Positions 5,337 to 49,787 of a stretch of DNA of 64,000 nucleotides are shown in pieces. The stretch is from IMG/VR virus record IMGVR_UViG_3300010883_000007, positions 40,453 through 104,452 of that record; one strand, written 5' to 3'. The DNA is from a virus. The translations under genes were made by a program, and so were the position numbers. The notes beneath the pieces are model-generated. The model was given only the letters and a program-made list of their open reading frames with translations. It had not been told where the DNA came from and did not search any database. Position 1 is the stretch's first letter. Each line of letters opens with the position of its first letter.

Positions 5337-8300
5337 CAATAATCGATCCTCAACCTAAAGAGATAACCATCTGAGTCCCTCTTCACAATGGGTTGGGCCA
5401 AGTTGGCCCTCCCTATTATATTAAAACTCTCATCGTGAAGATTTACACTTGTAATGTAATTAAATTGGGACGCTGTCTCATTGGCATAGTCTGTGGGCTT
5501 AAGCGCTTTAAACGTCGGATTGGAGGAGGAATTGACAGATCCCTTGGGACAGGGCACGTTTATCTCCAGAACGTGCACGTTGTGCTCGCCTTCGAAACTG
5601 GTCGTCCACTCATCAGCTCCGAAGATGGGGATGTTCGGTGTCTTCACAACAACAATACCCTCCTCGTAGATGATATTGCCCACAGCGTTCCACGTGGCGT
5701 GCTTCGATAGGGAATCTGCCCGATAGAGGCCTCCGTGTCCGTCATCCCTGAGGGTCACTGCTAAAACACCCCCAGATCCGGTTACACTAGTGTCAGTTAC
5801 CTGAAACGATCCGCGCCTAATCTGATTCCCATAAAAGAGGTTCGACACATCAAAGAATGCCACCTGATTTGAGGAGGGATCCTTCGTCCTATTCAGGATC
5901 GTCAGGATACCAGAGTTGGCTACCCCCGGATCCTCGGGTGGAGCACCCTCCAGCGAATTGGAAATGGAAACGTCGGTGTTATCCTTTCCTCCCGTGAATG
6001 CGGTCACTGTCCTATACAGGTTTGTGAGGTTGTGAGCTATAGCAGTATTCCCTATAGTCCCCACTGCCCGCTGATTGAGGGTTACCACTCCGGCGTAATC
6101 ATCGGTGTCGGTGGCATCTCTGCTGGCCAGGATTAGTCCTGCGTGTCCGGTGGATCCGTTGACAGCAGATACAAAATTGTCGTAAACAGTATCAGCATCA
6201 GAGCTGTTGGCATTGACTAACACCTTACCCCCCTGGACATCACCGGTGACAGACTCGACCTCGTACACGAACCGATAGACCTTCGTCACTCTGTCATATG
6301 TGTTTGTCACCGCGTTCTTTCGTAATCCCGTTAGACGTATAGTTGCCTGATCAGCTGTCTTGGTTGGTGTGTAGATAATCTCTGCAGAGGCAGCCTGAGT
6401 TCCTATTCCCTGCCTTCCGCGGTTCTCGCTGGTGATATCGATTAACCCCTCCGGCAGGGATGCAGTGCTTACCATGTTCGAGAGGTTGATGAGACCGTAG
6501 TCAACATTTCCAGCGTCATTGACAAATCGATCGATCAGTGAACCGGATACCGGAACTTCGGCCCGGGTGCCGGACTTGAGAAGACCGAATGATGGACTGA
6601 ACCTTCCGTTGTCACACGGAAGGACTGTGAGATTTCTCTTTCTCAGGGAAGCATTTCGGTAGAGCCACAGGTTACACAGCTCAGCCGTGTTGGTGGTCAC
6701 ATCAATTGTCGATCCTGTTAGATTGAAGAGACGGGGATAAAGACCGTTAACAAACTCTCGGGTGAAGTTTGGAAGGTTCAACATGTGACCGCCGACGCCG
6801 AATGACAGGGCAACGTTGAAGGGGTCATCTGTGGTTGATCGAACTGTCTGGAACGGCGTCTGCATCACCTCCCGCTCCTTGGTCTCCTTCACAAAGAAAG
6901 GGGGCACGTAGAAGATCAGGTCAGTCGGAAGGGGATCAGGGCCCGACTGGGCAGACAGGGCAATCTGTTGCAGAGAGTGGTAGGTATTGAATATCTTGAG
7001 ATCGTGGATCTCAGCCCTCAACGGGTGCGAGAACCTCACCTTGTGTTCTGCTATATCATTGTGTGTGGCATCCACATTGGACATGTCGTACGAGTCATTC
7101 GTGAACATGCTGGTAACGCCCTCACGGTGGGCAGCATTAGCGTTGAAGAACTGTGCCACAACTCCCGAGCCATCCAGGGTACCATTGTTGGGACCGTCGT
7201 AGAAATTACCCACAAAGACAGCGTCCGGATCACCAATCGGAGGTTCGAAAGCCTGGGGCATCACTGAAGCTGATGGTATTAAAAATGTCGCATCCTCCTT
7301 GCCGTCAATCACGAACGATCCCGTGCCGCTATTGACTGAGGCTCCCCACCGAATGGCGACATGATGCCAGTGATTCCTCATGAGCGCGTTGTCCTTCGAG
7401 AAGAACACAAGGTCGCTGGGAACTTCCTGGGTGCTACTGCCGAGAGTTGGAAAGGGCTGGCTCACATTATTAGACGTGACCGCAGTGTTCCTGGGGGATG
7501 TCTCAGCGCTGTTGCTTAGCTGCAACATTATCCTGAATCCATCAGTCTTGCCGTTAATATCCTTCGACGAGCCCGAAATCAGGCTCACTGCGTACGAGGA
7601 AGACATGTGAATGATCGTGCCCGGATGATACACTGTTCTTCCAGGCTCAGTGCCACCGGTAAATGTAGACGGAACGTTAACACTAGTACTTGCGTTCCAT
7701 GCCGCGGCGTTGTCTAGGGTAATTGCAGTATTACCCGCACTTGTTTTGACAGCACCTTGTGTGAGTAAGACTACTCCCGCAGAGGGATTTGTAGCTACTA
7801 TATCCAGGGATGATTGTGCATTAATCTTTGCAGCAAGATCTGCAGCAGTTCCCGTACCGCCGCCGCCGGCGGCAGCAATTCCACTTACAGCAATATCTCC
7901 GAGTCCCCCAGTGAAAGTTGAGGGGACATTTACACTGCACACGCTGTTCCAGTGAGCAGCGTCATTTACAGTGATTGTAGTATTACCACTTCTACCAGTA
8001 GTTGAACCTTGGGTAATGGTTATTGCAGCAGTAGATGCTGATGCTGTCATATCTAGCGCAGACTGAGCATTAATCTTTGCAGCAAGATCTGCAGCGGTTC
8101 CTGTGGCGCCGCCACCTGCAGCATAGATTCCGTTGAGTGCAATATTGCCTGCAGAGACACCGTTGTTCTCGTTATCAACTTCAAACGTAACTGAGGTTCC
8201 ATCACCATCAATCAAATTGATTGTACTGCCTTCGTTAGGTTTGTCAGTTAGCGTAAAGGTGGCTGCTGGTGGTTTAAGACCATTATTCTCGTTGTCTATT

Positions 8301-9019
8301 TCAAAAGCAACCGAAGTTCCATCGCTGTCTAGCAAGGTGACAGTGGACTCTTCAGTAGGCTTATCTGAGAACGTGAATGTTGCGGTAGAAGAGAATTTCG
8401 AGTCGTTCGGTTCAGACGAATACTTCGGATTGATATAGAAATCGAACGTGAACTCCTTGTGGGGTGAGTACATGAAGTTGTCGACCTCATTGGTCTCCCC
8501 GGAAGAAGTGGCTGCCGGGTATATCATCACAGATCCCGTGGGAGTTGTGTCGGACGTGAAGAAGTGCAGGGTGTGGTAGTTGGGATACGCCCACTGCAAG
8601 CTTGGGTACGTGCTCCGGTACGTGGGAAAGAGGACCTTCCTCACAACATTCTTACGAAGAGTGTTGCTGGTCAACTTGAAGGAGGGCTCGAATCGAATGA
8701 CTTCCACCTTCTTCTGGCGTGCGGGTGAGGCGGAGGAGGAGTTGACTGTCTCTAGATACTGACTTAGATTACCAGAAATATCAGATGAGCCTCGGGAATC
8801 CCTTACTGTCTGGACCCTCAGTTCCTCAATATCAGCTGTTCCCCAGCTATCACCACCGTAGTCCTCGAGGGGTTGTGCCTCCTTCTCAATAGTCGAGGCA
8901 CGAGAGAAGACTTTAACTGACCCTGTCAGTCCTGAGGAAGATGATGTGAATGTCCGGCGGGGGTTGGTTGTGAGAGTAAATCGTTCAAGATTCTCTATTG
9001 GTATTGGTATAATTGCCAT
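5336..9019 (-). CDS. Large virion protein: LamG-like domain interrupted by FTGG modules
   Basis: A protein of 1227 residues, probably a tail or baseplate appendage. Residues about 125-430 resemble a LamG/concanavalin jelly roll (FTFDFYINPKY, then GTIIHMSSSYAVSLISGSS), but the two halves are separated by about 250 residues of FTGG modules (7652-8395). A third module lies at 5985-6395 and ends AFTGGKDN. The last 120 residues (VGNIIYEEGIVVVKTPN, NVPCPKGS, SNPTF, then a final LFRLRIDY) match the C-terminal end of the next gene upstream, 9058-10338, so the two proteins share a terminal module. No signal peptide or membrane segment is visible. Its position among virion genes and the carbohydrate-binding type of fold suggest contact with host glycans; this is inference. 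Confidence 0.8.
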   Translation of the reverse strand: MAIIPIPIENLERFTLTTNPRRTFTSSSSGLTGSVKVFSRASTIEKEAQPLEDYGGDSWGTADIEELRVQTVRDSRGSSDISGNLSQYLETVNSSSASPARQKKVEVIRFEPSFKLTSNTLRKNVVRKVLFPTYRSTYPSLQWAYPNYHTLHFFTSDTTPTGSVMIYPAATSSGETNEVDNFMYSPHKEFTFDFYINPKYSSEPNDSKFSSTATFTFSDKPTEESTVTLLDSDGTSVAFEIDNENNGLKPPAATFTLTDKPNEGSTINLIDGDGTSVTFEVDNENNGVSAGNIALNGIYAAGGGATGTAADLAAKINAQSALDMTASASTAAITITQGSTTGRSGNTTITVNDAAHWNSVCSVNVPSTFTGGLGDIAVSGIAAAGGGGTGTAADLAAKINAQSSLDIVATNPSAGVVLLTQGAVKTSAGNTAITLDNAAAWNASTSVNVPSTFTGGTEPGRTVYHPGTIIHMSSSYAVSLISGSSKDINGKTDGFRIMLQLSNSAETSPRNTAVTSNNVSQPFPTLGSSTQEVPSDLVFFSKDNALMRNHWHHVAIRWGASVNSGTGSFVIDGKEDATFLIPSASVMPQAFEPPIGDPDAVFVGNFYDGPNNGTLDGSGVVAQFFNANAAHREGVTSMFTNDSYDMSNVDATHNDIAEHKVRFSHPLRAEIHDLKIFNTYHSLQQIALSAQSGPDPLPTDLIFYVPPFFVKETKEREVMQTPFQTVRSTTDDPFNVALSFGVGGHMLNLPNFTREFVNGLYPRLFNLTGSTIDVTTNTAELCNLWLYRNASLRKRNLTVLPCDNGRFSPSFGLLKSGTRAEVPVSGSLIDRFVNDAGNVDYGLINLSNMVSTASLPEGLIDITSENRGRQGIGTQAASAEIIYTPTKTADQATIRLTGLRKNAVTNTYDRVTKVYRFVYEVESVTGDVQGGKVLVNANSSDADTVYDNFVSAVNGSTGHAGLILASRDATDTDDYAGVVTLNQRAVGTIGNTAIAHNLTNLYRTVTAFTGGKDNTDVSISNSLEGAPPEDPGVANSGILTILNRTKDPSSNQVAFFDVSNLFYGNQIRRGSFQVTDTSVTGSGGVLAVTLRDDGHGGLYRADSLSKHATWNAVGNIIYEEGIVVVKTPNIPIFGADEWTTSFEGEHNVHVLEINVPCPKGSVNSSSNPTFKALKPTDYANETASQFNYITSVNLHDESFNIIGRANLAQPIVKRDSDGYLFRLRIDY
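5985..6395 (-). repeat. FTGG module, divergent copy in the 1227-residue virion protein
   Basis: A module of about 135 residues, boundaries approximate. It begins ASAEIIYTPTKTADQATIRLTG and shows the family pattern in order: a Y-x-F strand pair, an alpha-helix ending in STGHAGL, a VTLNQ strand, GNTAI, then LTN and the closing FTGG. It is diverged from the other copies in this gene, which suggests an older insertion. Confidence 0.6.
7652..8395 (-). repeat. Nested pair of FTGG modules
   Basis: Read in the coding direction: a module begins at about 8395 (STATFTFSDKP), runs to DNENNGLKP, is broken by a complete second module (about 8268 to 7904, AATFTLTDKP to the first FTGG), and resumes with GDIAVSGIAAAGGG to its own FTGG at 7652. 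The split falls at the same point where the intact copy reads DNENNGV then GNIALNG, so the inner copy sits inside the outer one. A 29-base stretch is identical between them (7818-7846 and 8067-8095). Confidence 0.75.
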
Positions 9020-9057
9020 TTAACGCCGTCATCTTGAAACTTCGGTTAACCGATTCA

Positions 9058-10338
9058 CTAAAAGTCCAAACGAACCCGGAAGGTGAGATCCCGCTCATCG
9101 TTCTTCTCAATAGGTCTAGAGAGTTTTGCAACTGCCAGTAAATTGCCGAACTCATCATGGAGGCCAATCGTTGTTGGGAAGGAGAACGATCTCTGTGTGT
9201 CCTGTCCCTGGTCGATCACTCGAACGCGACCGGATGAATTTGTGTACGTTGGGTTCGTAGAGAAGTTGAACTCATCTGCGGTCGCCCTGCAGAAGACCAG
9301 CGTTGAATTAATCATTGTGATATTCTGGAAGGTCATCGCTGTCAGGGTTCCCGAGGAGAATCGGGTGGTTGAGAGGTGGTTGATAATATCATCGATTGAC
9401 GCTGACACAACAAAATCTGGGATGTACTTCGCATTAGGATTACCCGAGAAGATTGACTTTGTAGCGTCAGCAACATTCTCAAAGCCGTGGCCTATTACCA
9501 TCGTTCCGGTGGCTAGAAGTCCGTCAGGTGAATACTGATTCATTGCCTTAATGACTCCGGAGACGTGCTGGGTACCCGATATCACCTTTGCGAGGTCGAG
9601 AAGCACTGTTCCATGATCGTAAAAGATCAGGCCGACTCGTCGGGCTGTGTTGGATGCGGCGACAATGTTCGCGACGTCGCCGCCGAATACTCGTCGAGTG
9701 TTGGTTGCAGCTCCAATGTCTGTAAAGATCACTGACCCCGACTCGCTGGTGATGTTCAGTGTAGGCCGAGGTGGGTGGTTGCCCGTCTCAGTGGCAGTCA
9801 TCGTTCCTGTCTGATAGAAACGCATCGCAAAGGTCTCTTTCTTGATCTTGTCCCTTGCAAATAGGCGTTTGAAGGAGACAAACATGGCCTCGTCGATCCG
9901 ATCACCCACGTCTGTGGACCCAACTGGCGAATAGAAGGCTGAATCTCCATTACCCAAGAGTGCCTGAGCGTACTGCTTGTATATATCCACCTTCTCTCTC
10001 ATCATTACTGAGCTCGATGCGAACAGAAGTTTTCCTGCGGAGTCTTGCCCTGTGGAAGCATTAGTTACTGTTGTTCCGGATGCATGGAGCCCCACAGTCA
10101 GGTCGAAGATTGGGTTGGCAGTTTGTAGCGAGAAGTCCTGATCATTTACTGTCTGGAACAGCGAAGAGGTTACTCCTGGGCCCACGCCTCCTGTAACAAA
10201 GACTTGGTACGCGCGGCGCGTCTGTGATCCAGATATGTCCTCTTGAATAATATCGACAAGCTGATTCAGCGTTGAGCGTCGGACCTTGATGTCCTCAGGT
10301 TGTATTCTCTTAAAGCTTCCACCTGTTAATTGTGGCAT
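9058..10338 (-). CDS. Virion protein, probable tail or baseplate appendage
   Basis: A protein of 426 residues opening MPQLTGGSFKRIQPEDIKV. The N-terminal two thirds describe a soluble beta-rich protein (VGLIFYDHGTVLLDL; TFQNITMINSTLVFCRA). The C-terminal part with CRATADEFNFS, NPTYTN and the closing strand FRVRLDF is shared with the C-terminus of the following gene, 5336-9019. A pattern of Cys-Arg-Ala, then SxNPTY, then GLHDEFGNLLAVAKLSRPI is familiar to me from structural proteins of T4-like phages, but I cannot attach a proven function. There is no membrane segment. It is separated from its downstream partner by 38 bases and from its upstream neighbour by 18 bases, so the two are probably made together and may occupy equivalent positions in the particle. 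Confidence 0.72.
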   Translation of the reverse strand: MPQLTGGSFKRIQPEDIKVRRSTLNQLVDIIQEDISGSQTRRAYQVFVTGGVGPGVTSSLFQTVNDQDFSLQTANPIFDLTVGLHASGTTVTNASTGQDSAGKLLFASSSVMMREKVDIYKQYAQALLGNGDSAFYSPVGSTDVGDRIDEAMFVSFKRLFARDKIKKETFAMRFYQTGTMTATETGNHPPRPTLNITSESGSVIFTDIGAATNTRRVFGGDVANIVAASNTARRVGLIFYDHGTVLLDLAKVISGTQHVSGVIKAMNQYSPDGLLATGTMVIGHGFENVADATKSIFSGNPNAKYIPDFVVSASIDDIINHLSTTRFSSGTLTAMTFQNITMINSTLVFCRATADEFNFSTNPTYTNSSGRVRVIDQGQDTQRSFSFPTTIGLHDEFGNLLAVAKLSRPIEKNDERDLTFRVRLDF

Positions 10339-10356
10339 TGTTTATCTTACCTCTAC

Positions 10357-11073
10357 TTACGCTGTGGGTCTTGTAATGGTCACAGTGAAGTCCTTTCGGT
10401 ACCCCGACTGATTACCCACCACTGCAACAACGCTTGTGATTGTATTCTTGTCCCCGAGATTTCCGTAAATTGTAAAAATTGTGTCATCGAGGCCTGGTTG
10501 AAGAACTAGGTTAAATCTCACCTGGGCTCCGTTCTTATTGTTGACCCCGGTCTGCTCAACAAGATAGGATGATATCCTCGTTGTGGACTCAATATTAAAG
10601 GGTGACCGCCCCTCCACAGCCAGAAATCTATCAGGTGTCATAACAATAAAGGAGGTGTCTGAAACACCCTCAGGAATTCTGGTCTCGCCTTCAATTGTCT
10701 GCTCAAACACCACTTCACGGGAGGAATTATTGCTTGTATTAAATGCTACTGTGTTTCCGGTGAGGCCCGCTGTCCCCTGCAGTGACACAGTTGGAAGGTT
10801 ACGAACCGTTGGGTCAGGAAGGCTCAACATGCGAAACTTCTGCGCAATACCCGACTGTGTCTGGGCTTCGAAGATCGGCGTGTTCTTAATGATCTTCTCC
10901 TTACCCACAGTCCTTCCAAACTTTTCGATAATGGTGTAGTCGATCTCATCGTCTGACAGAGAGAAGAAAGATATCATAAAGTCGCCCTTGTTAGCCGCCA
11001 AAAATTCTCTTCCGATATCTGTCAGGACAGCATCAACAATAATGTTATTGGTTGAATGATCAAGGAATCCCAT
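10357..11073 (-). CDS. Virion-associated protein with N-terminal TDxGR module
   Basis: A protein of 238 residues. The ATG at 11073 is preferred over an upstream GTG because GGGGAG stands 8 bases before it and the product then begins with the compact motif MGFLDHSTNNIIVDAVL. Residues 13-45 (VLTDIGREFLAANKGD, then FFSLSDDEIDY) resemble the N-terminus of the 313-residue product of 19719-20660 (IITEQGREQAANGE, then TFSDRDTFY), so the two are paralogous there. The rest is beta-rich (YGNLGDKNTITSVVAVVGN). There is no enzyme motif and no membrane segment. It sits in the middle of the virion block with a 158-base leader that contains a small open frame and a hairpin. The role is probably structural; no closer call is justified. 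Confidence 0.7.
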   Translation of the reverse strand: MGFLDHSTNNIIVDAVLTDIGREFLAANKGDFMISFFSLSDDEIDYTIIEKFGRTVGKEKIIKNTPIFEAQTQSGIAQKFRMLSLPDPTVRNLPTVSLQGTAGLTGNTVAFNTSNNSSREVVFEQTIEGETRIPEGVSDTSFIVMTPDRFLAVEGRSPFNIESTTRISSYLVEQTGVNNKNGAQVRFNLVLQPGLDDTIFTIYGNLGDKNTITSVVAVVGNQSGYRKDFTVTITRPTA

Positions 11074-11074
11074 C

Positions 11075-11149
11075 TTATTTCTCCCCTTGAGACTTTCCTG
11101 CACTCCACAGGAGTGAATGTTTAAGTACTCTATAACCTCTTGATATCAC
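11075..11149 (-). CDS. Possible 24-codon leader peptide before the TDxGR virion gene
   Basis: Within the 158-base gap upstream of 10357-11073 there is a frame starting GTG at 11149, with AGGAG exactly 6 bases before it. It has 24 sense codons (begins MISRGYRVLKHS) and its stop ends one base before the ATG of the next gene. The good ribosome binding site and tight coupling are visible in the sequence; whether it is translated is unknown. It could be a true micro-protein or a translational coupler, or chance. Confidence 0.3.
   Translation of the reverse strand: MISRGYRVLKHSLLWSAGKSQGEK
11101..11115 (-). other. Small perfect hairpin in the gap before the TDxGR virion gene
   Basis: CACTCC-TGT-GGAGTG forms a 6-base-pair stem with a 3-base loop. 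No U-run follows, so it is not a classical terminator. It lies inside the possible leader frame, 28 bases before the start codon of the next gene, and could pause ribosomes or mark an RNA-processing site. Confidence 0.35.
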
Positions 11150-11231
11150 GCTATTCTCCTAAACGCTTGCAGATAAGTATAATGAATATTAGCTAGACCG
11201 TAAACAGTATCTGCTGATATGAATCTTATCC

Positions 11232-13046: not shown

Positions 13047-13057
13047 ATGTCACTTTC

Positions 13058-19710: not shown

Positions 19711-19718
19711 ATAAACTC

Positions 19719-20660: not shown

Positions 20661-20724
20661 GTCTAGTAACTATCCCAACTATAAAATGTCAGACCCATCG
20701 ATTGTGAGATTCCAAAAGTCATCC

Positions 20725-21537: not shown

Positions 21538-21555
21538 TCTTATGTCTCCTAGACA

Positions 21556-22038: not shown

Positions 22039-22048
22039 AAATCACATC

Positions 22049-25000
22049 CTACTCAAATGTCAGCATAACACTGGTTCCTGAGGCGTCGTCAGGGTTAGTC
22101 GATCGATCCCGGGTTAGTCCATCAAAATACGGAAGTGAGGAGGTGCAGAAAACATCTAAGTTCTGACTGTGTGTGGATTCCGGATCTACGTTAACAGCTC
22201 GAGCGCCCTCATCGTCGGGTCGAGAAGTGAATGTTACACTAACAGGACCTGACTCTACACCGTCTTCAGTAAAGAAGCGAGTAAATCTACGGGCCTCGAG
22301 GAGATCTCTCACTTGACCGAACTTATTGTGGCGATACACAGCAGAAGAGTACATGGGTCGAATATTGGCCACTCCATACTTGAAACCTCTCAATATAACT
22401 TCAGATCCAACACCTATGTGCATACCCCCAGTCACATGGGTCGAAATATCGCGGTTAACCGCTGTCTGGACTGTTGTATAGCCCACGGGTTCTTTAGTTT
22501 TCTCCCTCTCGCTATACCAATAACGATAGTTGTTGTTAGCGGTGTTCCACGTGTAAGAACCCACTGGAGGAGCAATATAAGACTTACCATTGTGGGTGCC
22601 ACCGTCGCGCTGCGCTAGGTACTGGTCGATGTAGTAGACAAATTTGGAGTCCGACGAGTGCGGATACCCCCACGTGATCTGGACAGTAGTTACTGTTGAT
22701 ACACCGGATCTCACAAAGGATCCTGAGACAGGAATGGTCGCATTGCGATCCACAAGAATCCTCTGCCACTCAGTTCCGTCTCCCAGTAACCCTCCGCCAG
22801 TGAAGGATGTTGCTGTAATATTAGTCACAGTCGATGTGATTGTCGTGTTACTCTGACTACCCCCAACCTTCTGAGTTAGGGACATAGAGCCTTCTCCGTT
22901 GGCTGAGGGAGCTGTCCCCACAGCAATTACAGAGTCTGCGGTGTTGGCATTGTGCCCGTTGGTGTGATTGATTGCAGTCTTTAGCAGGGTTAAATAATCT
23001 CCCTGGTCCATGGCGCCAAGATCTGTTCTTATTGCAATACCTCCCACAGCAGCATCACCCTCAGATAGGGTGAATCCGTCGCCGAAGTCACCCACTGCAA
23101 GAACATCTCCTGTTACTATTGAGTTACCCTTTCCACTTGGTCCGATGCCAATAAGCACATACTTCTTTGTTACTCCAGCAGACGAGGTGATAGTGACTGT
23201 CTGTAGCTCGTTTGCAGACGTAAATGAGTTGAGATCGCCGTCTGCACAACCCAGGGATCCGGCTGCCCTGGAGCTATTGGGATGATCAGATGAGATCGTC
23301 ATTTGAGTGTCTGAGGAGATTGCAGTGACTATTGCAAATGTGCTTGATCCCAGCTCGCCGTACTGACTATGCGTAAAGTTAGATGCAGTAATATTCTGTG
23401 CATTAGCATCGACGGTAATAGCTGTGTTCATGGATCCTGAGGCGCCGGCGACCTGCTGATACAGCGCAAGTGTGTCTGTACCGGCGATGGCGTAAATATT
23501 AGAGACTCCATGCCCGTTGGCAGAATCTATACACGTCTTGAGCGAGGCAACTGCTGTCGCAAGACCAGATGCATTATTGAACACAAGAGGAGCGCTATTA
23601 TCAGACCAGATTGTCGCAGTTAAGTTAGTCACATCGTCGGGGGGTATAAAACCAGAACCTCCAGTGCCGACGGTCGCTTGGGCTAGTGTCATCGTGTTGC
23701 CTGATATCGAACAGGTAATCTTGGGGTTGTGGCCATTCTCGTGGTCAATGGCAGTCTTTAGCTGGGTTAAATAATCCCCCTGTGTAGACAGACCACCGCC
23801 CGTCAGGTTAATTGCAACAGCAACTCCACCTATGGCCAGATCATCATTTCCATAGCCTGATACTAACTTGTTACTTCCATAATCAGACCCTGCTGCCAAC
23901 ACATCACCGGTGGCCACCGAGGTTGCCGCGTCATCCACTAATACATACCGCTTGGACGTGCCATCAGTTGAGACAAGTGTAATTGCCTGAAGTTCAGACA
24001 TACCTGATGCTGCAGCTGCATTCGTAACTGTCACATCACATGAAGCCACTGTTGTTGAGCCAGTGCCGGCGGGAGAGAGGTTCTCGGCAGTACCTGCCCT
24101 ATAGTACTTTACTGTTGCCGCTGTATCGATGATGGCTATCGTGTCACCGGTAATAGGGCCAACTCCTCCAAACTGAATTGCGGCAGAAGATCTGGGTCCG
24201 TGTGTGCCAGTGCCCCCTTCTGGAGGGTTCGATCCACTCAACGCGATACGATCTCCTACCTTTATCTCTTTGGTAAACTTTGTGTTGATCCCAATAATCG
24301 TATCTGATTGATTGGTACTTGTGTGACCCTTAACGTGTATGGGTTCTGCATTCTTGTGTTGAAAGGTCTTAAATGCGGGCATACCAAAAAAGCCATCGCC
24401 AAAACCATAGTATAAGGAGTTGAGCATGGTTATCCCATCTATCTCATTAAATGTGAGATCACCGCCTCGTGGCCCTATTAGAGCGAGACCTGCGTGAGAG
24501 ACTGACTCTGTCACAGAGGATGAGAGTTCAGAGTATATGGGTCGACTTCGGCCGTCGCCTAAGCTGGCCACTGGAGCACCGCGCTGCCCGTCCACATCAG
24601 TCATGTCAATATCTTTAGTTCTCAAGAGATAGGACTGTAACCCTAACGAGCTCAGGAAAGTCTTAGAGCCTGAGATTGCTATGTGACTTATGGCGCCGGC
24701 GCGTATCACTTTACCCGTAGAGCCTGTGACCACATTAAAGGTTTTGTTACCCTTCCGCTCTGCCGCTAGACGTTTCACCTTCGAGTACTTTGGCTCAAAG
24801 GGAAATGAGAATGGAAGATCCCTGTCAAATATTTTATTCGGGCCGTCAATTGACGATCGAGGCTCAGATATTACTAAAACGTTAGCTTTGGGATCTAGCA
24901 TTCCCGCGTTGGGTGTTAAGCTAAGGCCAAAAGATATCTCTGTGCCTGCGTCATCAAAGAACTTTGAGTCGACAATGGCCTCGACTTTGAGACTCCTACC

Positions 25001-28000
25001 ATCAAATAGGGAGTCATTGTTGATGTCTAATATACCAGCAATTGATGGAAGCAGGGTATCATAGTATCGCTCCCGGTGGTCGACCAACTTGAGGCCACGA
25101 AGGAAAGAACCGGTAACGCCTGCTGTTCCCTCAGACACCCTTCCAATCACCTTTCGGTGCACACCCTTATTCTCAAGGAGATAAGACTCACTTCCGGATG
25201 TGGGAAGGGAACCTGTCATCATGTGACCAGCAATCACATTTTCCAGATAAGAACCCGAGTAGGCAAAGGATGGCTCTGTGTCATACTGATCATACACGTC
25301 TGTGCCCAGAAGAAGCGTCTCGTGTATTGCCTCAGAAGTCAGGGGCTGATTACTTGACGGTGTAATCTCCTGATCGCCTCGAAGCACAGATCCATACAAC
25401 ACTAACTTTCCAGCCCCAGGGTGCAACTCGAATGCTGGAGCGGCCAAATCTCCGGCGTAATTCAGCGGAGACTGGAATCCAAAGACTAACTTATCTCCCG
25501 GCATTAACATGTAGGGGGAGGTCACTCTGTCTGTTTTTGGCGCCTCTAGTCTGAACGTGTCTTGGTAGGCATCTACACTATACGCACGCTCGAATCCGCT
25601 AAACTCTCCGCCTCGAATGGCGCGTCCCGTGGGTATACCCAGACCGTTACGAGAGCCATTGATGAACCTGATAAGCAACGAGTCGTTGTCAGTGTCAGGT
25701 GTGGTGTCATTGAGTCCGGGGATTTCTATGTAATTCCCGCCCAGATCCCATGCTGAAGATCCTGGAGCTAATGCGGGAGCCCGAACTGGGGCAGCAAGTG
25801 TTAGTCGCTGGTGGGCCCAGGGAGAGGCAGTGTCAACAACAAGATCACAAAATGATCGAAGGTCTTCAACATACTTCTCAAACACTGTGGGATCATTCAC
25901 ATTTTTATCGGTGGTGAAGGTTCCTATCGTGGAAAATGTGACCAGGTCCCTTACAGTTCCCACCTCATCGTACTTGACAGGAATAATCTTTCGAATGGTC
26001 TGGGCTGTGTTGTCACCTATTCCTCCTGCGTCGCGGCCATCGGCAAAAGTGTTGAAGAGTCTGTTACTATAGAAGTCTGTTCCGTGTACAGAGGCAGCTG
26101 TTAGCCCGTTAGTCACTTGTCTGTTTCCCGAGGATCCATCTGCCAGCTGTGTCAACCTGAGAATGCCGCCGGCTCGACTTACAAGAAGCTTCCCATAGTG
26201 ACCGCTGTCGTTCTCAATACACTTCTGAAGTTGTAGAGCGATCTGGGCCGAGGTTCCTGTGCATGCAAACTCCATCTTAGAATGTGCAAAATTCGTATTA
26301 TTAGCTGCATAATACACTTTGGTTGTGTTGTCTGTCGACGTCAGTGTGACTGTCTCGCCGACAACAGGAACTTGGGCGTTGGTGTGTGACAGCTGTGAAA
26401 TATAACTCGAGGTAATAGACACTGCTGTTGTGTGTGCTTCCCCCGGTGTTAGGATTATTAGCTGGGCCCCGTTCGCCTGGGCCGGCACATCGCTCACCAG
26501 AAGCTTTCCGTTGTGACCGTTGGCATGCTCGATGGCAGCCTTGAGCTGGACCAGGAAGGCATTCTGTGTTGCTGGGGTTCCCGTTAAATCAATAGTCACA
26601 GCGGTACCGGATTGACTGGCGGTGGAGCCTCCCCCCACATCTGTTACACCACTGGTCACCACATCGCCGGTTGCGACTGCCGATGTGGCATCGTCCACGA
26701 TAATATAACTTTTGTTAATGCCGGCGGCTGAGATGTAGACACGCTCGTTTTTGGTCATTCCGCTAACTGCATCACCATCTACTACTGTTAGTGTGCTAGT
26801 CCCAAAAGTTATTACAGTTTTAGCCTGAGTCGCTTTGTCAGCGACGATAATCTCTGCATCGTTATTGATTCTTGTTACCCGAGCAGGCCTAGAGAGAAGG
26901 TTCCCCATTAGCTGTATGCTGTCACCCACCCTAAGCTCACTGGTGAACTTTGTTCCCGTTCCGGCAACCACCATTGATCCGGACACAGTCTTCGCAGCAG
27001 TTCCGGTTATGGTGTCATAGTCATACCCCTCACCAGAGCCATAGGCAGAGGAGTGTGGTGAAAGCTGCCACACAGTGGGTATTGTTCCGGAATATGGCAT
27101 CTCAATAGTTTCTTTTCCGGCGCCGGCTTCAGGGTGTTGGTCCCCCAATTTTGTTAAAACTGCTCGATTCTCAATTCCTGGATCTATATTTGCCGGTCTT
27201 TGGTTTAGAATGAAAAATGATATCCCCTCGCCGTACTTGGCCGAGGGTGTAGAGGTTTGTTTGTCCTTGAGTGATGCTGAGAACTCGTACACTATCTTCT
27301 CGACCAAAAACGGCCGGTCGATCAAACTAGATACATCAAAGACCTGTGATCCAGTGGCCGCGAACTTCGGGTGAAAGGGAAAGCCGAATGTATTAGTTGG
27401 CTGAGCGAACCCTGTCTCAATGGGTACCTTCTTGCCCTCAGACTTGAACCCCGGGGCGGAGGCATTGGCGGTGGACGAGGCCTCGGCAAGCTGCCAATGA
27501 CTTTGACCAAACCCAACCATCACAGTGTCTAACAGATTTCTTAATCGTGCACGATCCTCAGAGAGACCACCTCGTTGAGATTCGGGTATATGAGTATCCG
27601 GCTCCGGCCATGGCTTGTGTGAACCTACCCTCTCCCACTTCTTCTCATCAAAGTTGAAGTACACCATTGGGCCGGAGTCGGTCTGCCCCCCAGACTGTGC
27701 GTTCTTTGCAGTGTATTTTAATGATGTGGATAGAATTTTTGTCGAGGGCGTCAGGTCGATCTCTAGCCTGTGCTTGTCCCACAGTGGGGCAGATAGACCC
27801 GGGCCCACTATCGTTGGGTCAGATCCCGTCGAGTAGAAGGATCCACGAAGGGAGGGGTCTACAGTAAAGTTCGAATCCCATGTTAGGTCCGGATCATCAC
27901 CCTTCTTCGACCCAGAAACACGGTCAGAAGACATCACCGGTGTGTGACCAAACTGTGCAAAGAGATTAACCTCCCGATACGGCTCTAAATTCTGGGGATT

Positions 28001-31000
28001 TTCGCTTTTTCTGCGAGGATCATACGAGCTCCTGTGGGATCGTCCCGGTCCAAAGAGAGTAGTTGTGGTGTTGGGTGTTGAGAACGGTATACCGGTGTGA
28101 CCCCGGGGAAGGTTAAATGGAAAGTGGAGACCGTCTGTTGATCCCGTTAGAATTCCGAAGCTTCCACCACTGAAACCCAACGACTCCTTCCCAGGATCCC
28201 TTATAAGGTCCCCTCGGCCTCCCTCGATTCCCACCACACCTGGATCCAACTGTCTCCACTTGTGAGACCTTTGACCCACCTCGATCGTTCCGGTGACATT
28301 AGTCATAACGATTCGAGTGTTGCCCGAGGTTCCAGGTCGCATCTGAGTCAGATTGACTGTCTTATTCTGTGTCTCTGCATATATTCCCAGCGTGCCTGTC
28401 AGTTCGTTCACCTTCCTGGCAAACTCGGCCGCGGTCTGCTGGGGGGAGGAATACAGCAGGACGGGCACCTGGCTTGGCTTTCCACCTCTAAATTTGTGCG
28501 AGTAGATGGTACCGTAGACGTCTCTGTTTGATCCCAGCGAACCATCTGGGTGAGTAAAGTTAATCACGGTGTTACCGTAGTCACCAAACACATCCAGTGT
28601 TACCTGAGTTAGGCTGACGTTAGCGCGGGCTGCTGAGGCTGCTATCTTGCCAGCATGACCGGCGGCGGCGTTGATACATGCTATCAAGCTAGTGGCCAGG
28701 GCAGTTCTGGTTGCGCCGGCGAAAGTGGACCCTGTAGTTAACAATTGGGAGGAGGACTTTGTGTACGTCCGGCCAGTCCCATCAGTTGAGAAAATTGTAA
28801 TCGTCGTGTTATTATCGGGCACACTGCGAAAGAAGATTCGACCAAACGCGAGGCTCGCACTACGTACTGAGAGCTCGTACTTTGAATTCGCGACGAGGAC
28901 GAACTCTTTCACCCCTGCCGGAGAGGCATCAAGGCCCTGTGAGCCTGTTAGGGCCAATCTTCCCCATGCCATTCCTCGTTTGCTCTGGAGGAATTTTATA
29001 TTGGCTGTCGCGTAGCCAGAGAGAAACTCTGGAGTGTCACTGTCATCAAATGATGTGGTATACCTTCCTGTGAATCCTCGGGAGGTTACCAAGCGTGATG
29101 TTGTGGGATAAGCTCCGAGCTGATTGTCCCTATCTCTAATCTCCACACGCGGGGGGAGGCCGATAAAGCCTGACTGCTTCTTATACTGGCGGACACCCTT
29201 GAGTCCGGCGTAGTAGAGGGCACGTACGTCCTCAGTACTGAGCTGCTTGGACCACACAGCAGGCTCGAACATCTCACCGTTGAGAGAATCAGAATTAGAC
29301 GAGCCATCTCCTCGAAGATGGCCCAGGATGAAGTCTAACCCCTGGTTGGTGCCTCCCACAAAATTAGCTGCAGTGGCGTTCGTCGCGTTATCGGTTATTG
29401 TTTTGTTCCCGGTCGGGCCTGGTACCGCCTGGGTTAGGGTCAGTTTTCCGGCACCATCGTTGTGGACGTGTATCTTTACACTGCCTCCAGTAAAATTAGC
29501 CACAGTTACATTGGTGGCATCGCCTGTAACTACGGTGTTTCCACTGCTGCCAGCCACTGACTGGGTTAGTGTGATCGCCTGATTGCCGTCGGCCTGGGAC
29601 GGAACAGATCCCACCGCAATCTTGCCGTTGTGGCCGGCTGCGTGCTCAATTGCGGCCTTGAGCTGGACCAGATACGCATTCTGTGTGTGCGCTGGCAGAT
29701 TGATTGCAACAGCAATTCCGCCGATGGCTGTGTGACCTGCTGCAAGAGTGCTAGCGCCGTAGTCAGATCCCGCCGCTAGCACAACACCTGTTGCCACCGA
29801 TGTTGCGTCCGCGTCCACCAGAACGTACTTCCTGAGTGTCCCATCAGCTGAGGTTATTGTGATCGTCTGCAGCGCCGACATGCCTGATGCTGCGTCCCCG
29901 TCTGTGACTGTTACAGTGGTCGAAGCTTTGATCCCGTGACCGTTGGCTGTTTCGATGCACGCCTTGAGAGAGGTTGCGGCGGCCGCGAGGGTGGCTCCGT
30001 AAAACTTGGGTGGATCCGTCGTGAGATCTTGGGCTGTGGCAGTGGTGTTTGCGTAATATACTTTTGTTGTTCCGTCTGTCGAGATAATTGTGATTGTTCC
30101 GGCGTTGGCAGGCACACCCGTAAAAGTTATAGTGCCCTGGGCACCGTGTGCCGCAGACATTAGAGTGGGAGAGGGCGTTGTGTAGTCAGGTGTTACACCC
30201 GTGCCGCCGGCAATTAGGGAATTATACCTGCCCTCCTGGCCTGCAGTCTTGGTGTATCGATCACCGTTGATGTATATCTTGACTCCGGAGCCTGCGTATG
30301 ATGTTCCGGTGGCGCTGTAGTTATTGACACCGTTCTTCCAGCAGTCAGCAAGAAGGTCAGTTCCTGAAGATCCATCGTAGGTGACTGCAACATGCACCCA
30401 ATCACCTGTTGGGATCTGGGCAGAAACATCATCTGTATAAAATAGAAGTGCCTGTGTAGATAGCGGTCCACTTCGAAGCTCAAACTTAAGGCCAAGCGAG
30501 GAATAATAGAACTTATGACCTGCGGTCTCGCCGGCGGCGATCCCGGCGACACCGGCTACCACGGGAGGCGACAGCCCGAATATACCAAAAGTTGTATCTG
30601 TTGTCTTCAGCCACACCGCAAAGGAGAAGGGTCCGTCAACCACCTTGTGAGGATCCTTACCCGTATCGACAAAGTGAAAGTCCTTGTGGGCCGCGGCACT
30701 GATGTACGAGTCTGAAGATGTGAACCGGCCGGCAAGGACGGGCGGATCAGACTCAACGTGGGATCCGGAGTGGGGTGACACCCGAACATCGTGGCCTGGA
30801 CGTGTGCCCGAGGCAAAGGTTAAGCCGGGGACAGATGTGCTGGTGGGATCGCTGTTGCCTCCCGTGAAGGACGTTGCTGTTACACCGGTGAGACCCACAG
30901 TGACAGTGGTATTACCACTGTGTCCCAGTGTTACCTGAGTCAGGGTTAGTACCCCACTTCCGTTGTCGACCACAGTAATCTTACCATTGTGGCCGCCGGA

Positions 31001-31462
31001 GGCATCTTCTATACATGCCTTAAGCGAGGTGGCAGCGAGTGCTGCAGTGGCCCCATGAAATGTACAGGGATCAGCGCCCAGGTCCTGGGCGGCCGCCTTA
31101 GGATAAATCTTGGTGGTACCGTCAGTGGAGATGATCGTGATTGTCTGCGTGTTGGTTGGCACTCCGGCGAAGGTCACAGTAGCAGTGGCCGCAGCTTGGG
31201 CCCAGGTGTCGAATCCGTGGTGGGGATCGAGTCCACTGTAGGACGCGTGGTGTCCATTTCCGGAGAGATCCCTAATACTTCCACTGCTCATGGGAAGGAA
31301 GGGATCAGAGTGCTTTGTGAATCTCCAGTGTGCAACCAACGAGTCGGCTGCTGTGTAGTGCAGCCGGCCCACGTGAGTGCCACCCGTCATCCCCGCAGAG
31401 ACCTGAAAGTTGGTGTCAAAGCGGGCCCCTGTGATCTTCTTACTTAACTTAACTTTAGCCAT
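22049..31462 (-). CDS. Giant 3137-residue virion protein, LamG-like core invaded by nested FTGG modules
   Basis: The longest gene in the window. It begins with a LamG-like jelly roll: LVAHWRF near residue 43, DLSGNGHHA, PFSFAVWLK, WVHVAVTYDG, VKIYING and GEMFEPAVWSKQLSTEDV. These strands are spread over residues 40 to about 760, because one FTGG module (30858-31192) and one nested pair (29352-30140) interrupt the fold. Another module lies at about 28558-28850, another nested pair at 26045-26820, a third nested pair at 23364-24190 and a single copy at 22795-23265. Between them are virion domains (for example VFDVSSLIDRPFLVEKI) and a smaller twice-used motif (GTKFTSELRVGDSIQL and NTKFTKEIKVGDRIAL), the second interrupted by a module. 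It is probably a long tail or baseplate appendage. No chain-cleaving or enzymatic motif was seen. It starts 3 bases after the 1051-residue gene, which carries the same modules. Confidence 0.85.
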   Translation of the reverse strand: MAKVKLSKKITGARFDTNFQVSAGMTGGTHVGRLHYTAADSLVAHWRFTKHSDPFLPMSSGSIRDLSGNGHHASYSGLDPHHGFDTWAQAAATATVTFAGVPTNTQTITIISTDGTTKIYPKAAAQDLGADPCTFHGATAALAATSLKACIEDASGGHNGKITVVDNGSGVLTLTQVTLGHSGNTTVTVGLTGVTATSFTGGNSDPTSTSVPGLTFASGTRPGHDVRVSPHSGSHVESDPPVLAGRFTSSDSYISAAAHKDFHFVDTGKDPHKVVDGPFSFAVWLKTTDTTFGIFGLSPPVVAGVAGIAAGETAGHKFYYSSLGLKFELRSGPLSTQALLFYTDDVSAQIPTGDWVHVAVTYDGSSGTDLLADCWKNGVNNYSATGTSYAGSGVKIYINGDRYTKTAGQEGRYNSLIAGGTGVTPDYTTPSPTLMSAAHGAQGTITFTGVPANAGTITIISTDGTTKVYYANTTATAQDLTTDPPKFYGATLAAAATSLKACIETANGHGIKASTTVTVTDGDAASGMSALQTITITSADGTLRKYVLVDADATSVATGVVLAAGSDYGASTLAAGHTAIGGIAVAINLPAHTQNAYLVQLKAAIEHAAGHNGKIAVGSVPSQADGNQAITLTQSVAGSSGNTVVTGDATNVTVANFTGGSVKIHVHNDGAGKLTLTQAVPGPTGNKTITDNATNATAANFVGGTNQGLDFILGHLRGDGSSNSDSLNGEMFEPAVWSKQLSTEDVRALYYAGLKGVRQYKKQSGFIGLPPRVEIRDRDNQLGAYPTTSRLVTSRGFTGRYTTSFDDSDTPEFLSGYATANIKFLQSKRGMAWGRLALTGSQGLDASPAGVKEFVLVANSKYELSVRSASLAFGRIFFRSVPDNNTTITIFSTDGTGRTYTKSSSQLLTTGSTFAGATRTALATSLIACINAAAGHAGKIAASAARANVSLTQVTLDVFGDYGNTVINFTHPDGSLGSNRDVYGTIYSHKFRGGKPSQVPVLLYSSPQQTAAEFARKVNELTGTLGIYAETQNKTVNLTQMRPGTSGNTRIVMTNVTGTIEVGQRSHKWRQLDPGVVGIEGGRGDLIRDPGKESLGFSGGSFGILTGSTDGLHFPFNLPRGHTGIPFSTPNTTTTLFGPGRSHRSSYDPRRKSENPQNLEPYREVNLFAQFGHTPVMSSDRVSGSKKGDDPDLTWDSNFTVDPSLRGSFYSTGSDPTIVGPGLSAPLWDKHRLEIDLTPSTKILSTSLKYTAKNAQSGGQTDSGPMVYFNFDEKKWERVGSHKPWPEPDTHIPESQRGGLSEDRARLRNLLDTVMVGFGQSHWQLAEASSTANASAPGFKSEGKKVPIETGFAQPTNTFGFPFHPKFAATGSQVFDVSSLIDRPFLVEKIVYEFSASLKDKQTSTPSAKYGEGISFFILNQRPANIDPGIENRAVLTKLGDQHPEAGAGKETIEMPYSGTIPTVWQLSPHSSAYGSGEGYDYDTITGTAAKTVSGSMVVAGTGTKFTSELRVGDSIQLMGNLLSRPARVTRINNDAEIIVADKATQAKTVITFGTSTLTVVDGDAVSGMTKNERVYISAAGINKSYIIVDDATSAVATGDVVTSGVTDVGGGSTASQSGTAVTIDLTGTPATQNAFLVQLKAAIEHANGHNGKLLVSDVPAQANGAQLIILTPGEAHTTAVSITSSYISQLSHTNAQVPVVGETVTLTSTDNTTKVYYAANNTNFAHSKMEFACTGTSAQIALQLQKCIENDSGHYGKLLVSRAGGILRLTQLADGSSGNRQVTNGLTAASVHGTDFYSNRLFNTFADGRDAGGIGDNTAQTIRKIIPVKYDEVGTVRDLVTFSTIGTFTTDKNVNDPTVFEKYVEDLRSFCDLVVDTASPWAHQRLTLAAPVRAPALAPGSSAWDLGGNYIEIPGLNDTTPDTDNDSLLIRFINGSRNGLGIPTGRAIRGGEFSGFERAYSVDAYQDTFRLEAPKTDRVTSPYMLMPGDKLVFGFQSPLNYAGDLAAPAFELHPGAGKLVLYGSVLRGDQEITPSSNQPLTSEAIHETLLLGTDVYDQYDTEPSFAYSGSYLENVIAGHMMTGSLPTSGSESYLLENKGVHRKVIGRVSEGTAGVTGSFLRGLKLVDHRERYYDTLLPSIAGILDINNDSLFDGRSLKVEAIVDSKFFDDAGTEISFGLSLTPNAGMLDPKANVLVISEPRSSIDGPNKIFDRDLPFSFPFEPKYSKVKRLAAERKGNKTFNVVTGSTGKVIRAGAISHIAISGSKTFLSSLGLQSYLLRTKDIDMTDVDGQRGAPVASLGDGRSRPIYSELSSSVTESVSHAGLALIGPRGGDLTFNEIDGITMLNSLYYGFGDGFFGMPAFKTFQHKNAEPIHVKGHTSTNQSDTIIGINTKFTKEIKVGDRIALSGSNPPEGGTGTHGPRSSAAIQFGGVGPITGDTIAIIDTAATVKYYRAGTAENLSPAGTGSTTVASCDVTVTNAAAASGMSELQAITLVSTDGTSKRYVLVDDAATSVATGDVLAAGSDYGSNKLVSGYGNDDLAIGGVAVAINLTGGGLSTQGDYLTQLKTAIDHENGHNPKITCSISGNTMTLAQATVGTGGSGFIPPDDVTNLTATIWSDNSAPLVFNNASGLATAVASLKTCIDSANGHGVSNIYAIAGTDTLALYQQVAGASGSMNTAITVDANAQNITASNFTHSQYGELGSSTFAIVTAISSDTQMTISSDHPNSSRAAGSLGCADGDLNSFTSANELQTVTITSSAGVTKKYVLIGIGPSGKGNSIVTGDVLAVGDFGDGFTLSEGDAAVGGIAIRTDLGAMDQGDYLTLLKTAINHTNGHNANTADSVIAVGTAPSANGEGSMSLTQKVGGSQSNTTITSTVTNITATSFTGGGLLGDGTEWQRILVDRNATIPVSGSFVRSGVSTVTTVQITWGYPHSSDSKFVYYIDQYLAQRDGGTHNGKSYIAPPVGSYTWNTANNNYRYWYSEREKTKEPVGYTTVQTAVNRDISTHVTGGMHIGVGSEVILRGFKYGVANIRPMYSSAVYRHNKFGQVRDLLEARRFTRFFTEDGVESGPVSVTFTSRPDDEGARAVNVDPESTHSQNLDVFCTSSLPYFDGLTRDRSTNPDDASGTSVMLTFE
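22795..23265 (-). repeat. FTGG module, type B
   Basis: Boundaries approximate. It contains the type B sequence of features: ELQTVTITSSAGVTKKYVLI, VTGDVLAVGDFG, AVGGIAI, a helix YLTLLKTAINHTNGHN, SLTQKVGG, NTTITSTVTNITATSFTGG. It follows a short Asp/Ser-rich linker after the second KFT-VGD motif of the giant protein. Confidence 0.65.
23364..24190 (-). repeat. Nested FTGG modules: type B inside type A
   Basis: The outer type A module begins SAAIQFGGVGPITGDTIAI at about 24190, is interrupted after STTVAS at about 24040, and resumes near 23600 with LATAVASLKTCIDSANGHG to the degenerate end ASNFTHSQ at 23364. The intervening type B copy begins TVTNAAAASGMSELQ. The whole insert splits the second KFT-VGD motif: VGDRIALSGSNPPE before it and AIVTAISSDTQMTIS after it, compared with an uninterrupted copy at about 26840-26950. 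Confidence 0.65.
26045..26820 (-). repeat. Nested FTGG modules: type B near the start of type A
   Basis: An outer strand KTVITFG at about 26820 is followed at once by a type B copy (VVDGDAVSGM through LIILTPGEAHTTAVSIT). The type A body then resumes at about 26370 (NAQVPVVGETVTLTS) and runs to NGLTAASVHG at about 26080. The outer ends have drifted (no FTGG), which suggests an older event than the copies at 29-31 kb. Confidence 0.55.
28558..28850 (-). repeat. FTGG-family module, degenerate type A
   Basis: RIFFRSVPDNNTTITIFSTDGTGRTY, then ALATSLIACINAAAGHAGKIA, VSLTQ and GNTVINF. The closing FTGG is lost. It lies between LASVRSASLAFG-like strands and a GTIYSHKFRGGKPS segment of the giant protein. 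Confidence 0.55.
29352..30140 (-). repeat. Nested FTGG modules, clearest case (type B inside type A)
   Basis: The outer type A copy starts GTITFTGVPANAGTITI at about 30140 and reaches ANGHGIKAS at about 29921. A complete type B copy then follows (TTVTVTDGDAASGM to ANFTGG at 29482). The outer copy resumes with KIHVHNDGAGKLTLTQ and ends FVGG at 29352. An intact type A copy reads straight from GHNGKI to LTLTQ, so the break is inside one structural unit. The pair itself sits between two strands of the LamG-like fold (VKIYINGDRYT before, LNGEMFEPAVW after). Confidence 0.75.
30858..31192 (-). repeat. FTGG module, type A, inside LamG-like fold
   Basis: ATATVTFAGVPTNTQTITI to ATSFTGG, about 112 residues, the cleanest single type A copy. 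It separates DLSGNGHHASYSG from GLTFASGTRPG and the later FSFAVWLK strand of the same LamG-like domain, so it occupies a surface loop of the host fold. Confidence 0.72.
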
Positions 31463-31465
31463 ATT

Positions 31466-34400
31466 CTACTTCTTGAGACCCCCGAATGCTATGGAGTCTG
31501 TGCCCTTATCCATACCAATATACACAAAACCTGCTCCGGCGGAAACATGGTTTCTCTTGAGACGGTCTTGAGCTGAGCCCGTCATGGCTGCCAGAGCAGT
31601 CGTCATTATGCCGTCTGCCAGACCTCCGGACTCACCTCCTGTGAAGGATGTTGCGACAGCATTTGTTAGGTTATCAGTCACAGTGGTGTTTCCTTCAGGA
31701 CCGCCGTCTGCCTGTGTTAGGGTTAACAGAGAGGTTCCGGATGGGTTAACCACAGTTATCTTTCCGTTGTGCCCAAGGGCTGTTTCGATGCACGCCTTGA
31801 GGGATACAGCAGCGGCGATCGGAGTGGCTCCGTAAAACTTGGGTGGATCCGTCGTGAGGTCCTCTGTCGCAGCACTGGTATTTGCGTAATACGCTTTTGA
31901 TGTTCCACTCCTTGAGATGATTGTGACAGTTCCACCATTGGCCGGAATCCGCATATCAACACTAAAATTGGCCACGGTTGAGGTTATAACAGTAGTCCAG
32001 CTGTCTCCGCTGGCCTGGGTTAACGAAAGGACCTGAGCTCCATTCGCCTGGGTTGGGACTGCTCCAACTGTTAGCCTACTACCGTGTCCCTTGGGATGTT
32101 CAATGGCCGCCTTGAGCTGAACCAGGAACTCATTCTGTGTGTCCAGGGAAGATCCGGTCGCCTTAATTGCGACAGCGATATCCCCATCATCCGCTGTTGT
32201 TGCAGAGCCCGTGTCTGACCCATCCTCCAACACAGCTCCCGTAGTAACGGTTGAGAGCTCCTCATCGACGATCCTGTAGACTCTCGTCCTGGGGGTCGTC
32301 GTACCCTTTATCGAGACAATTGTCACCTTCTGCCCCTCAGCCATGCCCGAGGCCGCATCGCCGTCGGCGACCGACACGTTCGCTAGTGCGTCATCACCCA
32401 AGACGGCAGACGGAAACTGGACTGTCGCTGTGGCCTTGATGTCTGTCCGCGTCTGCTCGTCCGTGATGCCCGCTATTCTTATGTACGCGTCCGATCCCTC
32501 TTTAAAGGGCTCGAGCTGATTAGTCCTGGGCGCAAACAGGCCCTGCATTGTGACTGGACCTGTTGATGTTGCGCCGGGGGGGAGTCTTGCTTCGAAGGTC
32601 TCGTCATCCTCCTGGGAATTAAAGGCCTGAAAGGTCGGCTCTAGAAGATCAAGCCCAAAGGTCTCAACTCCGTCGAAGTACATATCCATACCCGTCTCAT
32701 TGGGATCGTACTGCTGATCCATAAGGGTCGACTGCCTGAATATATCCTCTGTACACATATCAGCACGGATGCCGCGCGCGGTGTAGGGCAGCTCAATTGA
32801 GGATCGATCTGCGAGGCCTCTGATTGGAAATACCTCCATCACACCATCCATTAGGCTACGAGCTGATGCATCAACCATCATCTCCGGAACGACCAAGCTG
32901 AGTGGTGGTGTTCGAACAATATCAGCAGCGTTGGTAGTCATTAGGTCGTTGTACTCACTGCCGTCTTGGTAAACGTACAGCGCCTGCCCGAGGTCACGCT
33001 GGTCCCTGGCGTGATTGATTGCCACACCCAGGCCGGAACTTCTGGTGGATGTGTCAAGCTGTGGGAGGGATTTCACACCCCATGCAGGCTCGCGAATGGG
33101 AGAGTTGACCTCTAGAGATATATCAGTTAATGCCCATAGATCGTTCGACCCAGAAGCATGGTTAACTTGTACCCACTTTACACTCCATGGGCCGGGGCCA
33201 TACGGACTTAGTGACTCTGTAACTGATAAAACTGTTCCTGCTGCTAGCCCGTAGTCGCCTCCGCCGATAAAAGATACTACTGAACCACTCGCTAGGGTCT
33301 CAATTATTGTGGTGTTACCTGCGGGCCCGGTTGATGCCTGTGTAAGTGTTAACACACCTGAACTGTTATCAGCCATAGTCACCTTTCCATTGTGCCCAGT
33401 GGCTGCTGCAATACAGGCTGCGAGAGAAGTGGCGGATGCGGCGGCGGTACCGATGGTGGGGACTGGGGGGATTGCTAACAAGTCCTGTGCTGCACCAAAC
33501 GTATACACTCTAGAAGTTTCATCTGTTGAAACAATTGTTACCGCTTCGCCCGTTATAGTTGATCCGGTAAATGTCACAATTGCTGTCGCAGATGTATCTG
33601 CAGTCGCATGAGTCCTTACTGTATTCCAGGATCCGCCCTGACCAGAGAGGTCACCCCTTATCTGAAAGTGTAAATCCTGATCAGCACCGGGAACTCCGCC
33701 AGCAGAGGTCATTCCGGAAATAGCGCCCTCGGGCCCTGAAGACGTGTCGCCTCGAATCACACGATACTTTACAGTTACTTTATCCTGTAAGCTATTTGCC
33801 CTCACACCCCCCAAGCTTCCCGTGACACTCAAAAATCTATCGCCTGTGTCTGATCCCCCTACAAACCCTGAAGATGTCACATTAGTGAGTGAATTCACAA
33901 TTGTCGTATTTCCAGAAGTTCCAACAGCAGCTTGGGTTAGCTCAATCTCAACAGACTCATAATTTACTGTAATGCTGCCATTGTGACCGTTAGCGTGAGC
34001 TATACAATCTGATAAAGATTCTGCTGCACCTTCTTCATCGGTGTTTAAGAACTTTGGTGGATCTGATGTAAGATCTTCGGAGGCGGCGGCGACATATGCT
34101 TTTACCAGGCCTGCGTGGTCAGTTATCTCTATTGTCTCTCCAACTACGGTTGCGCCATCGAAAACAATAATTGCTGTGGCTGCCTTGAGAGGCTGTCCTC
34201 TCATAACCCACCACTTGTTGCCTGTTGTAGTAGCTGTGAGTACTGCCGGTGCGGTACCGGGATGCGTGCTTCCATTCGCCTCAAAAATATCAACGTTTAG
34301 GGTACCAATTGCAGCATCAAACGATCCCGCGGATGTACCGGATGCCGATCGGCTTGAGGACACAGCCATATTGCTCGGCGCGTCTAGATCATTATAGAAT

Positions 34401-47560: not shown

Positions 47561-47561
47561 C

Positions 47562-49739: not shown

Positions 49740-49750
49740 AAACCTATTAT

Positions 49751-49761
49751 ACCTCGAGGTA
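49751..49761. other. Perfect 12-base palindrome just upstream of the nuclease start
   Basis: TACCTCGAGGTA spans 49750-49761, 11 bases before the nuclease ATG, and overlaps its likely ribosome-binding region. It could be an operator or just an XhoI-containing chance palindrome; no repeat copy was seen elsewhere. Confidence 0.25.
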
Positions 49762-49787
49762 CAGCGCTTTATCACGTAGCATAAAAA

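Follow-up and report, generated by a model that had tools for sequence, protein, structure and literature searches.

The window analysed here makes up the final 64 kb of an IMG/VR virus record of 104,452 bases (G000). Three of its virion genes, P1, P2 and P3, carry 17 copies of a module ending in FTGG, detected by reading of the open reading frames (ORFs) and iterated profile searches; the first-pass annotation had put the number at about 16. An extra module lies outside the window in a sheath-like gene (G000:C1:19515-19832, locus L128). The module is about 110-150 residues long, starts AATATVTF and ends F(T/S)GG, and the residues just beyond both ends are unrelated. In type B, which is otherwise type A, the loop joining strand 3 to the helix is longer. 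Complete copies match the profile with E of about 1e-13 to 1e-37. No family in Pfam, PHROGs or NCBIfam covers the module, which also finds no match in the PDB by sequence. The host genes P1, P2 and P3 belong to no family recognised in Pfam or PHROGs, and none of the three has a Pfam match to an intein splicing (HINT) domain. A neighbouring gene, 39799-41646, has matches to baseplate wedge families, so that a place for P2 and P3 in the baseplate or at its periphery is probable. The list below includes comparisons with a close relative, G001 (IMG/VR record L001, partly also L002), in which a neighbouring gene is 90% identical in protein.

P1, 5336-9019 (-): ORF with 3 module copies
5987..6355 (-): P1 simple copy, profile match at P1 residues 892-1011, E 9e-17; also in G001
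8279..8392 (-): P1 nested pair, outer N-half, profile 1-34
7904..8278 (-): P1 nested pair, complete inner copy, profile 1-109; G001 nested likewise
7652..7903 (-): P1 nested pair, outer C-half, profile 34-109
P2, 22049-31462 (-): ORF with 10 module copies
30854..31192 (-): P2-1, clean type A copy, E 2e-37; G001 copy at the same place only 55% identical
29924..30142 (-): P2-2 outer N-half (type A), profile 2-70
29474..29923 (-): P2-2 inner type B copy, absent from G001
29348..29473 (-): P2-2 outer C-half, profile 67-109
28847..28909 (-): P2-3 divergent outer module, N-part; uninterrupted in G001, rejoined halves scoring 205 v 37 for the inner copy
28508..28846 (-): P2-3 inner type A copy (sixth nested case), profile E 2e-24; absent from G001
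28274..28465 (-): P2-3 divergent outer module, C-part, profile 45-98, E 3e-4
26804..26830 (-): P2-4 outer copy, first strand only; orthologous to an uninterrupted G001 copy
26384..26803 (-): P2-4 inner type B copy, type B profile E 2e-35; absent at this place in G001
26048..26383 (-): P2-4 outer copy, remainder, profile 6-106
24059..24187 (-): P2-5 outer N-half, from alignment with the uninterrupted G001 copy
23600..24058 (-): P2-5 inner type B copy, type B profile E 1e-37; absent from G001
23363..23599 (-): P2-5 outer C-half, profile 39-107
22790..23269 (-): P2-6 type B copy, profile match; also in G001
P3, 31466-34621 (-): ORF with 4 module copies
33854..34195 (-): P3-1, type A; site empty in G001
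33248..33592 (-): P3-2, also type A; site likewise empty in G001
32399..32434 (-): P3-3 outer copy, first strand, from ORF reading and G001 alignment
31961..32398 (-): P3-3 inner type B copy, profile match; no module in the P3 homologues L003, L007, L008 and L010
31634..31960 (-): P3-3 outer copy, remainder, profile 8-108

Elsewhere in the window, the virion protein encoded at 34622-38239, which is conserved, has a LamG-like domain (Pfam Laminin_G_3) and matches gp7-helical weakly; about 190 uncultured viral contigs have it, and none of the phage records searched does. A Nol-like carbamoyltransferase gene and two adjacent glycosyltransferase genes (58747-60387, 46379-48815) adjoin virion genes.

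Split copies and their uninterrupted counterparts

The five places at which one copy had been described as cut by another are all real, with coordinates that agree to within a few bases, and the outer copy does resume at the matching point, as seen from profile splits of 34|34, 70|67, 8|7, 8|6 and 42|39. A sixth case, beyond those first described, lies at 28508-28846 within the divergent module (28847-28909 and 28274-28465). Across ten split copies from the window and its relatives, the profile position at which the N-half stops and that at which the C-half resumes are correlated (r = 0.98, permutation p = 2e-5), the split positions of P3-3, P2-4, P2-5 and L117, which have very short or weak N-halves, being taken from alignments or weak matches. 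Half-modules are always ordered N-half, whole copy, C-half, and the reversed order was found in none of 66 non-redundant module-bearing ORFs with 128 detected copies or half-copies, collected by searches of IMG/VR viral contigs. Interruption of a module by a homologous module reaches several levels, and every nested pair requires insertion at some time.

Comparison with G001 supplies the counterparts without inner copies. There, four of the six outer copies run on without a break, the inner copies of P2-2, P2-3, P2-4 and P2-5 being missing, and orthologue alignment places clean empty sites at P3-1 and P3-2; conversely, G001 has one type B copy at a place that is empty in the window. The sites in P1, P2-1, P2-6 and P3-3 are occupied in both. 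Wherever an uninterrupted orthologue is available (four cases from G000/G001, one from L098/L116), the rejoined outer halves outscore the inner copy against it, by 245 v 96, 205 v 37, 153 v 44, 165 v 64 and 240 v 113. For P3-1, P3-2 and the inner copies of P2, the difference between G000 and G001 may be either gain or loss. As a separate observation, an in-frame TAA at L001:14682-14684 splits the G001 homologue of P2 into 845 and 1909 aa, and the window continues in frame at that point; the TAA may be real nonsense, recoding or a sequencing error.

Other loci give the direction of change. Since none of the P3 homologues L003, L007, L008 and L010 has a module, the gain of the P3-3 pair is placed on the G000/G001 line. 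In L109, a 330-nt in-frame copy stands between two Gly codons and is absent in L098/L099 (89% DNA identity); its site is also empty in the more distant L096 and, by sequence, in L116. Uninterrupted and empty orthologues of these kinds support the earlier proposal of repeated in-frame insertion of a coding module, into itself included.

In the wider family, empty-site homologues, with both flanks and no module, exist for 34 of the 68 simple junctions that were tested. Hosts include tail sheath proteins (PHROG 23; L103, L105, L114, L142, L158, L163), homologues of P2 (L102, with the module elsewhere in the protein) and homologues of the window gene 38239-39789 (L101). The module is thus found in several unrelated virion proteins and at differing sites in homologues, including several differing positions among sheath homologues, and its copies are not fixed at ancestral places in every relative. 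Between the tail-sheath-like genes of L128 and L163, the module site of each is empty in the other. At the sensitivity used, neither the module nor the host proteins matched any of 50,697 phage records, and cultured phages gave no match; a scan of genome contigs yielded no family member, and queries of viral contigs with a single module or with the first alignment gave nothing usable.

The deepest nest is found in L093:4138-8568, which encodes a 1,477-aa protein made almost wholly of nested modules and is practically identical in a second record, L094. Its order is eight N-halves, two whole copies and eight C-halves, with one opening half sitting between the two whole copies. Half-profiles give eight N-type matches of at least 4 bits (mean in shuffles, 0.01), of which six are opening halves and two belong to the whole copies; a further two opening halves score weakly (1.7 and -0.6 bits), yet retain all or most of the strand motif. 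The half-profile search supports every one of the eight closing halves at E of about 1e-5 or better. At least six and probably eight copies would be nested around the core, giving a nest of at least seven and probably nine levels, as judged from these matches. An unusual break, 73|71, falls at the matching rank of the stack, and the remaining halves would be paired according to their order; a joined-half pairing test is weakly informative (p = 0.14), one of the eight break points being decisive. A search for relatives of the L093 host protein with fewer levels found none.

AlphaFold2 models of nested pairs (the A-in-A pair of L098, pLDDT 81; P3-3, pLDDT 75) both consist of strands, one helix and strands, and the outer halves are mostly confident in pLDDT and show secondary structure. 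Break points, at profile positions of about 8, 34-50 and 67-73, fall in or adjoin predicted loops. The view that the outer units are interrupted domains, and not ordinary tandem ones, gains indirect backing, judged by pLDDT and secondary structure, from the predicted position of the breaks and the confident modelling of the outer halves. In Foldseek searches of the PDB, sheath proteins lead the matches, with T7-type nozzle proteins and FliD also listed; the matches to sheath protruding domains have a probability of 0.95-1.00 at modest E (0.0056-0.04), and the predicted fold may resemble these domains. Assignment to the Ig-like domains is not indicated, as no Pfam Ig family matches, the model has a central helix and Foldseek leads to sheath.

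Turnover at module edges and the origin of the copies

Between G000 and G001, the P3 module block has dN of 0.33-0.44 and dS of 1.3-1.5, as against dN of 0.01-0.06 and dS of 0.4-1.0 in the P3 flanks, so that modules turn over independently of what surrounds them. The P1 nested block (7652-8392) compared with G001 has dS of 0.21, about a third of the 0.60 of its host gene, and looks as if it had been recently exchanged. Between L096 and L098 the outer halves are 89% identical and the inner copies 60%, and similarity among module copies does not follow position. Such jumps in divergence at module edges would fit replacement and exchange. Exact direct repeats of at least 17 bp in the whole window measure 35, 29, 24 and 17 bp and all lie between module copies; the outer copies of P2-2 and P3-3, in different genes, have runs of 35 and 24 bp in common. 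Phage recombination genes in the window include an exonuclease (48888-49775) and an SbcC/Rad50-like gene (627-3770). Foreign base composition of the modules was considered and rejected as inconsistent (third-position GC in P1 0.40 v 0.60 in the host gene; P2 and P3 near host).

The module is probably a self-compatible surface domain of the virion that is gained, swapped and lost by recombination. It would fold independently, and its sharp ends suggest that the termini lie close together, which would let it fit exposed loops of many virion proteins, its own fold included, with the host fold left intact. Ordinary phage recombination acting on existing copies, within one genome and between co-infecting phages, could then produce in-frame gain, replacement and loss in sheath, baseplate-like and other virion genes, and selection would retain those in-frame events that leave the particle functional. 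The benefit is probably variable decoration of the virion surface, as an adhesion or interaction surface, and the module is a plausible candidate for a diversity generator of that surface.

An unlikely variant is that a domain without an enzyme of its own is spread by a dedicated, hidden phage process that prefers gene loops and the domain's own copies, with nine-level nests. Rather improbable, too, is a dedicated mobile element, moved by a phage recombinase, a homing-type nuclease or a retro-copying system, as might be suggested by the sharp ends, the many targets, self-insertion and the module-only exact repeats. Against it, no Pfam domain lies in the module, no recognised enzyme domain points to a transposase of its own, and module DNA is poorly conserved beyond protein constraint. 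The L109 junction, a single one seen at near nucleotide resolution, has no target-site duplication, GGT and GGT being present in L098 as well. G000, a possibly incomplete record, has no match to RVT_1, RecT or RecA, and with no RVT_1 there it does not qualify as a carrier of a diversity-generating retroelement. The earlier description of the module as mobile or recombination-prone therefore stands in its second part, given the turnover at module edges and the exact repeats, and not in its first, because no reverse transcriptase, RecT or RecA was found; these absences, with those of an enzyme domain and a target-site duplication, leave the term parasite without support. Gly-Gly microhomology as a required target was also rejected: the empty sites of L109 and P3-1 read G|G, but those of L101, L102, L140 and many others do not, so that the GG is mostly carried by the module.

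It is very doubtful that the N-N-C-C pattern arose by separate partial duplications of half-modules, or as domain-swapped tandem repeats, instead of by insertion of whole copies. The order of the halves fits both, and the eight break points of L093 include a single informative one; however, break points are complementary in ten cases, five orthologues have an intact outer copy with the whole inner copy absent, and the same whole module has been gained in unrelated hosts. Highly improbable is an ancient, fixed multidomain architecture in which all copies are ancestral and the differences are losses. The P1 pair, P2-1, P2-6 and P3-3 do stand at the same place in G001, but the outer copy must predate the inner in any nest, the L109 gain is set against three empty relatives, the four P3 homologues have no module, and sheath homologues differ in module position, with reciprocal occupied and empty sites in L128 and L163. 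An assembly or chimera artefact can arise at repeats in metagenome contigs, but here it is scarcely credible given practically identical record pairs from differently numbered datasets (L093/L094, L001/L002, L098/L099), reading frames open throughout, nested pairs common to diverged genomes and a longest exact repeat in the window of 35 bp.

Relation to known domain insertions

Two known kinds of system come closest, promiscuous domains of virions (PMC9022992) and recursive insertion of domains (SI3; PMC13114784). Virions of tailed phages carry Ig-like domains of the Big_1, Big_2, I-set and FN3 types (Fraser 2006, summarised in PMC9022992). Like the module, these are promiscuous accessory domains of several virion protein classes; they are sometimes placed between strands of a host domain (YSD1), and often surface exposed and dispensable for tube formation (PMC9022992). 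The module is unlike them in its predicted central-helix fold, its lack of a Pfam match, its self-insertion, its many copies per genome and its presence/absence variation between close relatives. The SI3 of cyanobacterial RNA polymerase (rpoC2) is a recursive insertion of hybrid-motif domains nested to 6 levels (PMC13114784), as compared with at least 7 and probably 9, by sequence, in one module protein; SI3 is ancient and fixed in a cellular enzyme, whereas the module sits in phage virions and varies between relatives. In a survey of domain mosaicism in phage proteins, the word 'nested' never occurs in the text (PMC10684548), and the module differs in that one family invades many hosts and itself. 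The best PDB fold matches are the protruding domains of sheath proteins (Milano, phiTE, Mu, 7-7-1 and cyanophage A-1(L)) and a T7-type nozzle; several module hosts are themselves sheath proteins, and no nesting of protruding domains is described in the literature searched. The B-in-A model also matches FliD D2-D3 weakly (184-189 columns, E about 0.05-0.08). In FliD, D3 is an insertion in D2, an architecture that is fixed, whereas that of the module varies.

What is new here is an unnamed family that does both, inserting promiscuously and recursively, and varies between close relatives. The L093 nest would surpass the six-level example of a 2026 survey of 48,551 insertion events (PMC13114784), and protein engineers gain a naturally occurring scaffold into several of whose loops its own copies can be inserted. 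As a rule, domain insertion is inferred for ancient proteins; in this family it differs between close relatives, in frame, with empty sites, repeated gains and self-nesting, so that natural phage populations allow its tempo, its target rules and the structural tolerance for it to be measured. Altogether, an unnamed domain family shapes the virion proteins of uncultured phages.
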